A stretch of 33,520 bases of DNA from Oscillibacter sp. (GTDB lineage: Bacteria > Bacillota > Clostridia > Oscillospirales > Oscillospiraceae), in the NCBI GenBank assembly GCA_017547085.1, contig JAFYQM010000026.1, positions 1-33,520 of the forward strand. The letters run 5' to 3'. The stretch's first letter is position 1. Each line of letters opens with the position of its first letter. A model generated the notes under the pieces. The model had not been told where the DNA came from, made no database searches, and worked only from the letters and a program-made list of their open reading frames with translations. This document shows, one piece after another, positions 3,659-23,924 of the stretch. Both the position numbers and the translations under genes were made by a program.

Positions 3659-4201
3659 TCACTTCATAAAATTCTGCCGGCGCAGCAGCTTTACCAGCGG
3701 CATGGCCACCGTGGCAACCAGCACTGCTGCAACGATTCCGGTCACAAAGCGGATGGCAGCCGCTCCAAACACCAGTGCAAAGGAATAGTAGCCGTAAATC
3801 ACGCTGTCCAACCAGATCACCGCTGTGTTGGCGGTTGTCCGCACCAGCGCCGCCAGAATACAGACCACATAGCAGGCCGCCGGACGGCATTCCAGCGTGC
3901 CCTTGCCCTGCCGCTTTGCAGTCAGACCAATGATCACCGCATAGATCACCGGAGGCATCACCCACAGCAGCGTGGTAGCAGTAATGCCGTAGGGGCTGAT
4001 GATCTGATTCAGCAATTCACCGAAAAAAGCGACCAGCGCCGCATCCAGCGGTCCCACCAGCAGCGCACTGACCATCACGGGCAGCGCATCGAAGGTGACA
4101 TGCAGATTACCCGGTGTCCGGATCTCCAACAGGTTCAGCACATAGTACATGGCCGCCAGCAGAGCAATGTAGCAAATCCGTCTGGCATTGAGTTTAGACA
4201 T
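3659..4201 (-). CDS. folT: ECF transporter substrate-binding component for folate (FolT)
   Basis: Integral membrane S component (180 aa) of an energy-coupling-factor vitamin importer; it docks on a shared EcfA/A'/T module not present in this window. It has about six hydrophobic helices. The loop LLEIRTPGNLHVTFDALPVMV and the segment GPLDAALVAFFGELLNQIISPYG resemble the folate S-component family. The start is the ATG of MSKLNARR, which follows AAAGGAGGT; an upstream in-frame ATG lies inside the regulatory hairpin and is rejected. Folate specificity is inferred from two independent facts: a THF riboswitch directly upstream and folC directly downstream. Confidence 0.88.
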   Translation of the reverse strand: MSKLNARRICYIALLAAMYYVLNLLEIRTPGNLHVTFDALPVMVSALLVGPLDAALVAFFGELLNQIISPYGITATTLLWVMPPVIYAVIIGLTAKRQGKGTLECRPAACYVVCILAALVRTTANTAVIWLDSVIYGYYSFALVFGAAAIRFVTGIVAAVLVATVAMPLVKLLRRQNFMK

Positions 4202-4207
4202 AAAAAG

Positions 4208-4258
4208 ACCTCCTTTTGTGGTTCGGCAGTCCGAAACGGAACGCCGCACAAAGGAAGT
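4208..4258 (-). promoter_or_regulatory. Shine-Dalgarno-sequestering hairpin of the folT riboswitch
   Basis: The folT ribosome binding site (complement of 4208-4220) can pair with the upstream strand ACTTCCTTTGTG (complement of 4247-4258), which would block translation. A competing helix is visible: TGCCGCAT (complement of 4275-4282, overlapping the 3' strand of riboswitch P1) can form 8 pairs with GTGCGGCG (complement of 4242-4249). Ligand-stabilised P1 would therefore free the sequestering hairpin and turn folT off. The pairing is seen directly; the switching direction is inference. Confidence 0.65.
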
Positions 4259-4278
4259 CACTTATCCATCCCATATGC

Positions 4279-4400
4279 GGCAGCGGGATGCGGAACACAT
4301 ACTGCGGGCCCAGCCCTTTCGTCCGGAAAACAACTCCCCGTTTTTCCGGCACTTCCTCCGGCGCGGTGCGCCGAAGATACACATGTATTCCTACTCTGCC
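4279..4400 (-). ncRNA. Tetrahydrofolate (THF) riboswitch
   Basis: The minus-strand leader of folT has the THF-riboswitch layout. P1 closes with GGCAG...CTGCC. The conserved 5' GAGTAG and 3' GCATCC segments flank P2 (ATACATG/TATGTGT). A hairpin CCGGAAAA/TTTTCCGG carries the loop ACGGGGAGTTG and is followed by ACGAAAG, matching the class's conserved loop and ACGAA segment. An additional stem (CTTCGGCGC/GCGCCGGAG) is inserted near the 5' side. THF riboswitches upstream of folT are established in clostridia. Assigned by reading motifs, not by a covariance model. Confidence 0.85.
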
Positions 4401-18166: not shown

Positions 18167-21100
18167 TTACATCAGGTTATACAGGATCTTTGCCATCTGG
18201 CCTCGGGTAATGTTGTTGTGGGGTTTAAACGTCCCGTCCGCATAGCCGTTAATGATCCCCTGTGCCGCCATAGTCTGAATATAATAGGTGGCATATGCGG
18301 GGATCCTTGCCGCATCACTGAAGGCCAGTTCCACCGTGGCATAGCCCTTCTCCTGCGTGCGGCCGATCATGGTGGCCGCCTGCGCACGGGTCAAGGGATT
18401 GTTGGGGTTGAAATACAGCTTCCCGTCACTGCCCGTGGAGCCGTTGATGATGCCCTCGGTGTAAAGCGCGCGGATGGCAGGAATGGCATACTCCGCGATC
18501 TTGCCGTTGTCCGCAAAAGGCAGTTCCACTTCCGCATACTTACTCTCGTCCAGTCCCAGATAGCGGTAGAGCATCACGGCGAACTGGGCACGGGTGATGT
18601 TCTGATTGGGCCGGAAGCTGCCGTCGGCGTAGCCGGTGGTCACGCCTGAGTGATACAGGAAATCCACATAGGTGGCTCCCCAGTACTCGGAAATGTCGGT
18701 GAACTTATGCTCCATACCCAGCGCATCCACATCCACACTGGCGCGGCCAATATTGCCGGAGGCATCTCTGGCCGTGACCGTCACCCGCATAGCCTCGTAG
18801 CTTTCACCGGGCCCGGGCAGATCAAATTTCACACTGCCGCTTTCTTTCTGATATGTGAACTCCACCGGCTGGCCGTTGAAGGCAACGGTAATAAATTCCT
18901 TGCTCAGCATGCCGTCTACCGCATCGAAGACCTTGGCCGCCACCGTCCAGTTCTCCTGATCCAGTTCCGCCGTCACCACAGGAGCCTCCTGATCCACTGT
19001 ACCGTCAAAGGCAGAGACAAGCTGGTCGATATAAACCGTTCCGCTACATGCCGTCTCAGGATAAAGCGGCATGAGGCCGCCCAGACCGTCATCGATATAG
19101 GTCATCTCACCAGAGGAGATCCGCAGGCCCAGAATGGAGAAATACTCGTCCGCCAGCGGTACAGTCACCTGTTTCCACCCGGTAAAGTCCAGTACGGCAA
19201 TCTCCTTTGTCAGGAAACCCTTGGTGCCGTTGCTATACAGGAAGGAAAGGATATTGCCGCTTCCGTCACCGTAGACCCACACATTCAGGCTGGGATACAC
19301 AGAATTGTTGATATCCGTCAGTGCGGACGTCCGCCACTCTGCCGTAAAGCCATTCTGCATACTCAGCTCATAGTCCAGTTTACCGGCCTGTCTGCCCCGC
19401 ATCACAAAGTCGCCCGCGTTGGTGAGGCTGTACTGCATGCCGTTGCCGGTTCCGTCAAAGACCGTGGATGCAGCCTCAAAGTCCTCTACCATCTTCAGGG
19501 GGATGCGGGAGACCTGTACCTCCACCGTCGCGCTCTTTCCTCCGGCGGAGACTGTGATGGTCCCGCTGCCGGGACTGCCCGCGGTGAATTTGCCGGTTTC
19601 ATCAATCGTGCCGATATTTCCGGATACCGTCCATGTGAACAGCTCCGGATCGGCATGCAGAGGCAGGTGGTTGTAAGCCGCCGAAGCGGAGAGCTTGGTC
19701 ACAGACCCGGGCGTGGCCGTCAATTCGGAAATAATGGTACCGCTGCTGTTGCGGACCGCCACATGGTCTGGCTCTGCAATGGCATGCACGGTGGTGCTGC
19801 CGCTCTTGCCGCTGCCCTGCGCCGTCACGGTGACCTCACCGCCCGCAAGGGGAGTTGTCAGCACGTTTCCGTCCAGCTCACCGGAAGACGCCCGCAGGGT
19901 ATAGCCGCGGTTCATGGGGATATAGTTGCTGTCCACCGCGGAGGCGGAAATGTTCACCTTGCTGCCGGCCAGCACATAATCGTGATCGGCCTCCACATAG
20001 AAATGGGACAAGTGGCTGCTGCTTTCCGCGCTTGCCACGAGGAAAATGCGGTTGCTCACCGCCCGTTCCGCGCCGGAGGGGGTGTTCACCACTTCCGCCG
20101 CCGTGGAATCCGGCATGGTAACAGACAGTGTGGTGGAACCGCCGCCGTCCAGACAGACTGCCGTGGTGCAGCCCAGTTCAATCAGCCGCTCTGCTACCTG
20201 CGTCAGTGAGGCACCGACGGAGTGGCCAGTTCTCCGTCCGTCAATGGTATAGAAAATCAGCGTGCCGTCCGGCTTCTGTCCCACCGCCGTGCGGGGGCTG
20301 GCTCCGGCAGCAAGTCCGGACACCACTTCTCCCCGTTCCACGAGAGAATACAGGGCGCCTACGGCATACTCCACATCGTTCCACGCCTGATCCGCCGCTT
20401 CAGCGGTCAAGGTAATGGTGGTGCCCACGGGAATGTTCCGCAGGGCGTCCACATAATAGCTATTGGACTTTAAGTTGACGGACAGTACCACCTGATTTTT
20501 GCCCACCGGCGTGGCGGATGCCTGATCCAGCACCTGCTCTACCGTCAAATGCAGCGTATCTCCGATGGCCAGTTCTCCATCCGCAATGCTGCAAACCACA
20601 TCCACGCCGGGTTCTGTAGTGCCGTTGGTATGGGCAGCGTTGAAATCATGAGTATAGAGGTAAATGCCGCCGTCGGACACACGGGATTTGTTGACGGCTG
20701 TGATCTGGCGGATCAGCTGCGTATAGTTTCCAAATCCGTCATCCACTCCATAGCCCAAATCCGCTGTCAGTTTTACGGCAGGCTTGCCCAGCACTGCCGT
20801 TCCGTCTGCGCGGAAACCCACAGCGTAATGGCCGGCATCGCTGCTGCGCAGTTGCCCCTCCGTTACCACAATGCCGATGGGCAGACCGGTAGTGGTGTTG
20901 TAGAAATCGCCGTTGATGCCTGCCACCACCCGGTAGCCTGCGGCCTCCACCTTTTTCGCAGAAGCAGAAACGGTGGTCTGCTCCCGCAGCACTTCGCCAT
21001 AGGTGACGATGGGGGTCACCTTGTTACTGGGTTCATATGTAATATAATGCTCCGTCCGCAGATCGGAATATGCACTGCTCCAAAATACGCCGCGGGTCAG

Positions 21101-21241
21101 CTGCGTGTAGCGGTGCAGTTCCACCTCCTGCTGCGTCAGATCCTCGCCCAGCGCCTCCGATGCCGCGGCAGGCAGCGTCAGGCCGCTCACCAGCGCCAAC
21201 GCCAACAGCAATGAGATACTCTTTCGAACGATTTGCTTCAT
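18167..21241 (-). CDS. Secreted phosphodiester glycosidase (NAGPA-type) protein with three SLH domains
   Basis: Exported surface protein (1,024 aa). Signal peptide 1-28 (KSISLLLALALVSG core, cleavage near AAASEA). Residues about 50-402 form a NAGPA/DUF2233 phosphodiester glycosidase domain (AGINGDFYNTTTGLPIG, 107-123; VCLDGGGSTTL, 362-372). Ig-like domains occupy about 410-580, a jelly-roll, carbohydrate-binding-like region about 583-745, and another Ig-like domain 750-842. Three SLH repeats (about 846-900, 907-960, 970-1024) should anchor it to secondary cell-wall polymer. The catalytic family removes sugars linked through phosphodiesters, so a role on teichoic-acid-like or glycan polymers is possible. 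Start chosen at MKQIVRKS after GGAGGG. Monocistronic. Confidence 0.88.
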   Translation of the reverse strand: MKQIVRKSISLLLALALVSGLTLPAAASEALGEDLTQQEVELHRYTQLTRGVFWSSAYSDLRTEHYITYEPSNKVTPIVTYGEVLREQTTVSASAKKVEAAGYRVVAGINGDFYNTTTGLPIGIVVTEGQLRSSDAGHYAVGFRADGTAVLGKPAVKLTADLGYGVDDGFGNYTQLIRQITAVNKSRVSDGGIYLYTHDFNAAHTNGTTEPGVDVVCSIADGELAIGDTLHLTVEQVLDQASATPVGKNQVVLSVNLKSNSYYVDALRNIPVGTTITLTAEAADQAWNDVEYAVGALYSLVERGEVVSGLAAGASPRTAVGQKPDGTLIFYTIDGRRTGHSVGASLTQVAERLIELGCTTAVCLDGGGSTTLSVTMPDSTAAEVVNTPSGAERAVSNRIFLVASAESSSHLSHFYVEADHDYVLAGSKVNISASAVDSNYIPMNRGYTLRASSGELDGNVLTTPLAGGEVTVTAQGSGKSGSTTVHAIAEPDHVAVRNSSGTIISELTATPGSVTKLSASAAYNHLPLHADPELFTWTVSGNIGTIDETGKFTAGSPGSGTITVSAGGKSATVEVQVSRIPLKMVEDFEAASTVFDGTGNGMQYSLTNAGDFVMRGRQAGKLDYELSMQNGFTAEWRTSALTDINNSVYPSLNVWVYGDGSGNILSFLYSNGTKGFLTKEIAVLDFTGWKQVTVPLADEYFSILGLRISSGEMTYIDDGLGGLMPLYPETACSGTVYIDQLVSAFDGTVDQEAPVVTAELDQENWTVAAKVFDAVDGMLSKEFITVAFNGQPVEFTYQKESGSVKFDLPGPGESYEAMRVTVTARDASGNIGRASVDVDALGMEHKFTDISEYWGATYVDFLYHSGVTTGYADGSFRPNQNITRAQFAVMLYRYLGLDESKYAEVELPFADNGKIAEYAIPAIRALYTEGIINGSTGSDGKLYFNPNNPLTRAQAATMIGRTQEKGYATVELAFSDAARIPAYATYYIQTMAAQGIINGYADGTFKPHNNITRGQMAKILYNLM

Positions 21242-21293
21242 CGGGTCCCTCCATTTGTTGCGCGGTATACATAACACCTCAATAATGGCATAC

Positions 21294-21322
21294 AGGATAC
21301 CATACTCCCTTTGTAAAGTAAA
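21294..21322 (-). promoter_or_regulatory. Possible promoter of the SLH protein gene
   Basis: On the minus strand TTTACT (21322-21317), 17-base spacer, TATCCT (21299-21294), about 52 bases before the start codon. A direct repeat GTTTAC lies around the -35 region. Moderate match only. Confidence 0.4.
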
Positions 21323-21396
21323 CGCGAAATTGTAAACAATTTTCCTCATTTTTCCCTTTGGGTGCTGCCGCGTCAGTGCAAACCGCAAAAATGTTC

Positions 21397-21661: not shown

Positions 21662-22444
21662 ATGACAAAAGAATTTCTGAAACTTCAGATGGCAGAAATG
21701 GGCCTTTTGCCTTCTGACACCGTGGTCATTCATACATCGCTTCGGGCTGTGGGCCACTTAGAAAACGGCGCAGACACCCTTCTGGACGCATTCTGCGAAT
21801 ACCTGAAGGACGGCCTTTTTCTGGTCCCTACCCATACCTGGGCAAGCGTCAACGCCCAAGCCTCCATGTATGACGCTGCCTGCACCTTCCCCTGTCTGGG
21901 CGCAGTGCCTGCGGCGGCAGCCTTCCGGCGTGACGGCCTGCGCTCCTTGCATCCCACCCATTCCATGTGGGCCCACGGCAAGAATGCTGCCCTCTACATT
22001 CAGGGCGAGGAAACGGCCACGACCCCTGCACCTCCCCAAGGCTGCTGGGGCAGGCTTGCCGATGTGGGCGCAAAGATTCTACTCATCGGGGTGGACAATA
22101 GCAAAAACACCTTTATCCACGCGCTGGACGAACTGGCCGGTCTGCCCGACCGCCTCGGCACGCCCTACGAAACCACACTTGCTTCTCCCGACGGTCAGAT
22201 TTTCCACGGGCAGATGACGCCCCATTTCTGCTCACGCTGTCCGGATGTATCCAAAAACTATGTAAATTTTGAAGATGCCCTGACTGCTACCGGCGCCCAG
22301 CGGTTCGGCACACTGGGCCGCGCACAGGTGCGCGTTGTGGATGCCGCCGCCTGTCGGGATACCATTCTGCGCACTTACCGCCGCGCAGACCACGATGTCT
22401 GTGTCGGCCCGGAAATCATTCCGGAAGCATGGTATCTGCCCTGA
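21662..22444 (+). CDS. AAC(3) family N-acetyltransferase
   Basis: Acetyl-CoA-dependent N-acetyltransferase (260 aa) of the AAC(3)/YokD family. Conserved segments: VVIHTSLRAVGHLENGADTLL near residues 21-41, the substrate/CoA region RSLHPTHSMWAHGKNA near 97-112, and ILLIGVDNSKNTFIHALDE near 139-157. Some relatives modify aminoglycosides at N3, but many chromosomal members have no known substrate, so resistance should not be assumed. Only a weak AAAGGA lies upstream, rather far from the ATG. It is downstream of the ferredoxin gene and ends at a strong terminator. Confidence 0.85.
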   Translation: MTKEFLKLQMAEMGLLPSDTVVIHTSLRAVGHLENGADTLLDAFCEYLKDGLFLVPTHTWASVNAQASMYDAACTFPCLGAVPAAAAFRRDGLRSLHPTHSMWAHGKNAALYIQGEETATTPAPPQGCWGRLADVGAKILLIGVDNSKNTFIHALDELAGLPDRLGTPYETTLASPDGQIFHGQMTPHFCSRCPDVSKNYVNFEDALTATGAQRFGTLGRAQVRVVDAAACRDTILRTYRRADHDVCVGPEIIPEAWYLP

Positions 22445-22449
22445 TATCG

Positions 22450-22488
22450 AAAAAAGTTCCCCGGTCAAATAGACCGGGGAACTTTTTT
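22450..22488 (+). terminator. Terminator between the AAC(3) gene and the thiolase gene
   Basis: Perfect stem with 11 core pairs GTTCCCCGGTC/GACCGGGGAAC (22456-22466 with 22472-22482), loop AAATA, flanked by A6 and T6. It works for both converging genes. Confidence 0.93.
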
Positions 22489-22520: not shown

Positions 22521-22604
22521 TTAGCACTTCTCGACCACGATGGCAGTGCCCTGACCGCCGCCGATGCACAGGGTAGCCAGACCCTTCTTGGCATCCTCAC
22601 GCTT
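22521..22604 (-). pseudogene. Orphaned thiolase C-terminus beyond the amber codon
   Basis: In the same frame directly after the TAG, 27 well-conserved thiolase residues ([19 protein letters not shown] and onward to VVEKC) run to a TAA at 22521-22523. With the TAG read as an amino acid the protein would be 417 residues. The perfect conservation of this tail shows that the stop is recent, is an error, or is read through. Confidence 0.85.
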
Positions 22605-23774
22605 CTACAGCTCATGCACCAGAGTGACGATGATACGAGCACCGGAAGCGCCGACGGGGTGGCCCAGAGCGATAGCGCCGCCGTTGACGTTGACCTTCTC
22701 CATGTCGAAGCCCAGCTCACGGCCCACAGCGATGGACTGAGCAGCGAAAGCCTCGTTAGCCTCGATCAGGTCGATTTCGTCGATGGTGACGCCGGCCTTG
22801 GCCATAGCAGCGCGGGAAGCGGGAACGGGACCAACGCCCATGATCTTGGGATCGACGCCGCCCTGGCCCCAGCCGATCAGCTTGGCCATGGGCTTCAGGC
22901 CGTACTTCTCAACGGCTTCGCCGGAAGCAAGGATGATAGCAGCAGCGCCGTCGTTGATACCGGAAGCGTTGGCAGCAGTCACGCGCTGGACGTGCTTGTT
23001 GGTGTCTTCCTCATGGATACCGGTGACCTCGAAAGTGTGGACAACATCCACGGTCTCGGGCAGAACGGGGAATGCGCCGCGCAGCTTGGCAACGCTCTGA
23101 GCGGTAACGCCAGCCTTGGGATACTCATCCTTCTTGAACTCAACGATCTCCTTCTTCACCTTCACGGGAACGGCAACGATCTCATCGTCGAAACGGCCGG
23201 CAGCCTGAGCGGCCTCAGCCTTCTGCTGGGAAGCAGCTGCGAAAGCGTCCTGCTCTTCGCGGGTGATGCCCCAGATGTCGTTGATGTTCTCAGCGGTGGT
23301 GCCCATGTGATAGTTGTTGAACACGTCCCACAGACCCTCGTTGATCATGGTGTCGATCATCTTGGTGTGGCCCATGCGAGCGCCGTAACGACCGGTGGGA
23401 ACAGCATAGGGAGCAGCGCTCATGTTCTCGGTACCGCCGCAGACGACCACGTCAGCGTCGCCGGCCAGAATGGAGCGGGCGCCTTCGATGACAGTCTTCA
23501 TACCGGAGCCGCAAACCATGCCCACAGTGTAAGCGGGGATCGCATAGGGGATGCCTGCCTTAACAGCGACCTGACGGGCAACGTTCTGGCCGATACCAGC
23601 GGTCAGGATGCAGCCGAACATAACTTCGTCAACCTGCTCGGGCTTCACGCCGGCGCGGTTCAGAGCTTCCTTGACGACGATTGCGCCCATCTCGGCAGCG
23701 GGGGTATCCTTCAGGGAGCCGCCAAAGGAGCCAATTGCGGTTCTGCAGCAATTTACAATGTAGAGATCTTTCAT
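22605..23774 (-). CDS. thlA: Acetyl-CoA acetyltransferase (thiolase), cut short by an in-frame TAG
   Basis: Condenses two acetyl-CoA to acetoacetyl-CoA at the start of the butyrate/crotonyl-CoA route. The open frame gives 389 residues. Nucleophile Cys88 (GMVCGSG), NEAFAAQ and active His372 ([14 protein letters not shown]) are intact. The frame then meets TAG (22605-22607) in LVHEL*KRED, where homologues have Gln (HEMQKRD). The lost downstream 27 residues would contain the catalytic Cys403 (LCIGGGQG), so the truncated product should be inactive. About 28 residues at 235-262 are extra relative to C. acetobutylicum ThlA. ATG follows CGGAGGAA. Otherwise no decay is visible. Confidence 0.9.
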
Positions 23775-23895: not shown

Positions 23896-23924
23896 ATTAT
23901 AGAGAGTTTTTCTGTGCTCGTCAA
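23896..23924 (-). promoter_or_regulatory. Strong promoter of the thiolase gene
   Basis: On the minus strand TTGACG (23924-23919), 17-base spacer, TATAAT (23901-23896). Close to the sigma-A consensus; predicts a 5' leader of about 115 bases. Confidence 0.85.

Follow-up and report, generated by a model that had tools for sequence, protein, structure and literature searches.

The question raised by this locus is whether a TAG codon lying in frame within a thiolase gene is read as an amino acid, or whether it simply ends the protein early. The window, by which we mean the whole stretch of DNA that was analysed (33,520 nucleotides), is the whole of contig C22 of an Oscillibacter draft genome (G000; 1.898 Mb in 97 contigs, 82.9% complete and 4.3% contaminated). 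Our answer is that the TAG is very probably a nonsense codon of the ordinary kind, peculiar to this draft, and not a new reading of the code. The features at issue are the following.

22521..23774, minus strand: acetyl-CoA C-acetyltransferase (thiolase) gene, identified by translation, PF00108, PF02803, TIGR01930 and PDB 8ecm_A.
22605..22607, minus strand: in-frame TAG, codon 390 of the thiolase, identified by translation and homologue comparison.
22524..22604, minus strand: 27 conserved codons with the LCIGGGQG motif, 3' of the TAG, identified by translation, homologues and PDB alignment.
23896..23924, minus strand: sigma-70-like promoter, TTGACG-17-TATAAT, 11 of 12 positions, a consensus match only.
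22450..22488, no strand assigned (listed on the plus strand only): 17-pair hairpin between two convergent genes, a possible shared terminator.

With the TAG read through, the gene has 417 codons followed by a TAA at 22521-22523; as written, it encodes 389 amino acids, and the premature stop removes the last 28 codons, the LCIGGGQG motif included. Translation bears out what an earlier note on this DNA had reported, namely a TAG in frame with 27 conserved codons and this motif behind it. The cysteine of the motif (Cys 403), to which the note gave a catalytic role, we take to be the second catalytic cysteine of thiolases. The read-through protein matches the full Thiolase_C domain (PF02803) and positions 2-233 of the 260 of Thiolase_N (PF00108), scores 449 bits against TIGR01930 (thiolase, acetyl-CoA C-acyltransferase subfamily; curated cut-off 240.55), and aligns with PDB 8ecm_A over residues 1-417. 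The near-consensus promoter of the earlier note is also there, at 23924-23896. Facing the thiolase on the plus strand lies a gene of the aminoglycoside 3-N-acetyltransferase family (21662-22444; PF02522, 148 bits), which stays under the NCBIfam AAC(3) cut-offs, so that resistance is not implied.

One way to read the gene is that the 389-residue protein is functional in itself, since its N-terminal domain and GHPVGASG motif are retained. Against this, it is missing the CIGGG motif, the C-terminal motif of TIGR01930-type proteins, which sits 3' of the TAG. This motif is kept in those homologues at 65% identity or more whose tails are shown in the alignment (L046 ends early, at a contig end) and in two aligned solved enzymes, and we find a functional short form scarcely credible.

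The thiolase is a core gene of the genus. A match was found in 79 of 86 same-genus genomes, our own included, the seven without one all being less than 90% complete, and all 42 genomes that reach 90% completeness with contamination no higher than 5% have a match, at 70% identity or more. Internal stops are absent from the thiolase matches listed for the 78 other genomes, which leaves our copy as the sole exception; apparent truncations in G006 and G055 turned out to be contig ends. In a further draft, G012, the same gene appears as two overlapping pieces with ambiguous bases present (L193, G012:C1:46500-49000). A 13.9 kb 'Bacteriophage sp.' record from human faecal samples (MT836014.1:6-992) is 80.6% like the thiolase DNA; it is probably of bacterial origin and was deposited under a phage name. 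A scan of viral_contigs for sequence of this species with another base in the TAG codon, by a 30-base pattern that fixed all but that codon's first base, gave no exact match.

Codon comparisons point to a tail that is constrained and without sign of decay, the 27 codons giving little power. In the comparison with L067, a 94% relative, 4 codons past the TAG differ synonymously and 2 non-synonymously, as do 85 and 21, respectively, over the 391 alignment columns in front of it. The corresponding counts are 3 and 2 after and 97 and 21 before for L039, and 12 and 4 after and 134 and 51 before for the more distant L069. No other damage was seen in the gene, and if the TAG is a real mutation, an undecayed tail would make it a recent one.

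What preceded the TAG is less clear-cut than the earlier note had it, which placed the stop exactly where homologues have glutamine and explained it by one CAG-to-TAG change. Among 107 distinct homologues covering the site (matches at 65% identity or more that include residue 390, after removal of identical duplicates, of copies from our own genome and of loci L147-L190), codon 390 encodes Gln in 58, Ala in 21, Met in 17, Leu in 7 and Cys in 4, and is a stop in none. Glutamine is thus the commonest residue at a variable site, but the nearest relatives (L009/L039, L010/L067, L058, then L077) carry Ala, as GCC or GCA. In a FastTree tree of 104 genes the window thiolase groups with L039 and L067 (support 0.999) and then with L077 (0.991), all of them with Ala. 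Parsimony over the thiolase tree, with the window gene set as unknown, requires 23 changes at codon 390, so the site changes often. A Gln codon immediately ahead of the TAG in descent is therefore plausible and a single CAG-to-TAG step possible, without backing from the nearest relatives. Two points here count against an ordinary nonsense codon. As the Ala codon GCC is three changes away from TAG, a single-step origin presupposes some intermediate that is not seen, such as CAG, and an error arising at random out of GCC would take three wrong bases.

The options that had been put forward for the TAG, namely a null mutation, an assembly error or amber readthrough, make up the right list, and the searches suggested for telling them apart were run where genome data allowed. 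Release factor 1 (prfA) is present and intact at C14:8405-9454, with no stop, 543 bits against a cut-off of 423, and GGQ present. RF1 is likewise over the cut-off and free of stops in the relatives G014 and G015, while neither RF1 nor a weaker, probably RF2, match was found in G022 (71% complete). None of the 44 tRNA matches in our draft has a CTA anticodon (43 are named by ARAGORN, and the remaining one, a shortened copy, has anticodon CGT); as the draft is 83% complete, a suppressor tRNA could be missing from it. The CTA anticodon is also absent among 96 of the relatives' 97 tRNA matches (34 in G014, 39 in G015, 24 in G022) that ARAGORN names, the unnamed one resembling part of tmRNA, below the cut-off. 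As regards pyrrolysine, the one PylS_Cterm match in our genome reaches 18.7 bits against a cut-off of 178, PylS is found in none of the 86 genus genomes at E 1e-6, and the test for MttB-type methyltransferases gave no TIGR02369 match in our genome.

Nor does TAG look like a sense codon elsewhere. No internal stops were seen in 51 ABC-transporter domain matches of our genome. A TAG with coding sequence both before and after it occurs in 1 of 219 of its ORFs (291 kb sample, window included), that one being the thiolase itself, and in none of 354 ORFs of the relatives (0/153 in G014, 0/30 in G015, 0/171 in G022); it occurs in 4 of 210 ORFs of G071, G082, G085, G001 and G005 together. Relatives whose TAG use is ordinary thus show an isolated in-frame TAG at least as often. 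On the RF1, tRNA, PylS and in-frame TAG tests, amber suppression or recoding was rejected as the main reading. Dedicated literature searches on premature stops in draft genomes, gut amber suppressors and TAG depletion found nothing.

An observation on the other side is the striking scarcity of TAG among the terminators of this clade, as judged from coding-potential gene calls with a score over 20 in DNA sampled per genome. In our own sample 4 of 221 genes end in TAG, one being the thiolase (3/220 without it); the counts are 0/155 in G014, 0/30 in G015 and 5/172 in G022, where three of the five lie in one 20 kb stretch. The five other genus members gave 7/72 (G071), 4/34 (G082), 6/51 (G085), 5/32 (G001) and 3/30 (G005). 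With the thiolase left out, this amounts to 8/577 in the clade against 25/219 in the five (Fisher p 5e-9, which is overstated, as genes of related genomes are not independent). Three genomes from other families of the order gave 2/36, 2/25 and 4/26 (self-trained calls, score over 20). The TAG share of stop trinucleotides in unassigned DNA is similar, at 0.18-0.19 in the clade and 0.16-0.23 in the other five, so base composition alone is insufficient to explain the rarity. TAG usage is about constant over bacteria of differing GC content, according to one study (PMC8789281).

With lower scores kept, our genome gives 6/239, including the thiolase and two calls of score 2-3, and the G022 count varied with the DNA used, from 5/17 (trained on 20 kb only) through 0/64 to the final 5/172. 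A count on longest ORFs had shown seemingly normal use (TAG 23/196) and was set aside because antisense ORFs had probably inflated it: of 10 TAG-ended longest ORFs tested, 9 had no NCBIfam match at 1e-30, and coding-potential calls leave 3/206. On this inflated set, extension length past TAG did not differ significantly from that past other stops. The other TAG-ended genes of our genome encode a 3-hydroxyacyl-CoA dehydrogenase, an FtsW/RodA-family protein and a Crp-type regulator; their domains are complete or near-complete before the TAG and the sequence after it looks non-coding, so TAG appears to terminate here. TAG is avoided in the sampled genes of the clade, yet without use as a sense codon.

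This rarity, together with the constrained tail, is what favours readthrough, in which a suppressor or near-cognate tRNA, or a weak RF1, would let sufficient full-length enzyme be made. Standing against it are a stop-free RF1 over the cut-off in three genomes, the lack of a CTA tRNA in the matches of our genome and in the relatives' named ones, the lack of a further TAG resembling a sense codon in 219 ORFs of our genome and 354 of the relatives, and the absence of this TAG from relatives. We judge readthrough very improbable, with a small chance left to it by the TAG avoidance. A bolder version, in which weak termination at TAG has nearly vacated the codon in this clade and a TAG in a core enzyme is tolerated by readthrough, strikes us as likewise very improbable; if true, stop-codon capture would be at an early stage here, one in which RF1 is retained.

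An ordinary nonsense codon thus being preferred, it may be a real mutation or an error of the draft. If the TAG is in the cell's DNA, RF1 would terminate there and the enzyme would be short by its last 28 residues; having lost the second catalytic cysteine, this copy of the thiolase would very probably be inactive. The earlier note had remarked that such a loss would be surprising in an only copy. Five further thiolase-family genes, all without stops, are present in the genome (on C14, C43 and, three together, C90), four of them over the TIGR01930 cut-off and the fifth without an NCBIfam match at 1e-80. The worry is eased by them only in part: they are just 26-35% identical to the window thiolase and so may not replace it. 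The three on C90 (L185, G000:C90:1-20000) lie beside ABC-transporter genes and, by eye, what we take to be CoA-transferase and dehydrogenase genes, and the locus may be an acyl-CoA degradation cluster.

If the sampled strain or population truly carries a null allele, with the other thiolases or another acetoacetyl-CoA route sufficing, the intact tail would fit a recent origin. A survey of butyrate producers states that some have alternative acetoacetyl-CoA routes, thl not being required (PMC5715108). Such an allele would be costly, however, since the gene is present in all 42 better genomes of the genus, and this, like the low identity of the paralogues, counts against it. We give a null allele slightly less than an even chance.

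The same near-even weight falls on a consensus or assembly error, with the organism itself having a sense codon at 390. An error would be in keeping with a draft of many contigs and some contamination, with a core gene in which no other damage is seen, and with the G012 draft, where this gene is in pieces. On the other hand, the rest of the window does not suggest an obviously high error rate. Close relatives are G014 and G015, about 88-89% identical to the thiolase DNA over the whole gene, and G022, 92% identical over 302 bases at the thiolase end; outside the thiolase their stretches are mostly 73-85% identical (one G014 stretch reaches 92%), and we take all three to be species other than the source genome. 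Of the 30 window genes listed, 23, among them the thiolase, have a match in these stretches. The remaining 22 show no sign of truncation, since in the relative the frame ends at most 23 codons beyond the aligned part, and where the relatives' aligned sequence has stops inside, in two window genes, these lie upstream of the likely ATG. A second thiolase allele on another contig was also considered and rejected, as the own-genome DNA search found only the gene itself and one weak 54-base thiolase match. Taken together, the tests that could be run (RF1 and other thiolases present, no CTA tRNA, no stop in homologues) favour the null mutation and error options over readthrough.

Two other features of the window deserve mention. 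A THF riboswitch (4279-4400, minus strand, 68 bits) lies just upstream of gene 3659-4261, which we take to be transporter-like, and a long protein (18167-21388, minus strand) combines a phosphodiester glycosidase, a CBM_11-like part and three S-layer homology stretches.

As it stands, one nonsense codon in one draft genome matters little. It does offer a caution: when a draft genome shows a stop in frame, this is no evidence of recoding, even if the tail behind it is conserved. Of wider reach is a clade that nearly avoids TAG as a terminator while keeping RF1, since vacated codons are where reassignment could begin.

Set beside known systems, the read-through thiolase has the same domains as the bacterial acetyl-CoA C-acetyltransferases PDB 8ecm, 8jg3 and 4n44, presumably of ThlA/AtoB type, and the same C-terminal motif as 8ecm and 8jg3, and differs from all three in the TAG at codon 390. 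An in-frame TAG where Gln is common also recalls the code 15 gut phages, in which TAG is read as Gln, as described in PMC9523058 and PMC10607447. According to the latter, 41 ORFs of phAss-1 contain TAG and the phage encodes three suppressor tRNAs with a CTA anticodon, though some TAG-recoded phages are without them (PMC10607447). Unlike phAss-1, our case has a single TAG codon, retains RF1 and yielded no CTA tRNA. The thiolase also resembles the nonsense alleles and recent pseudogenes of draft genomes, in having one premature stop, in a gene otherwise undamaged, in one genome.
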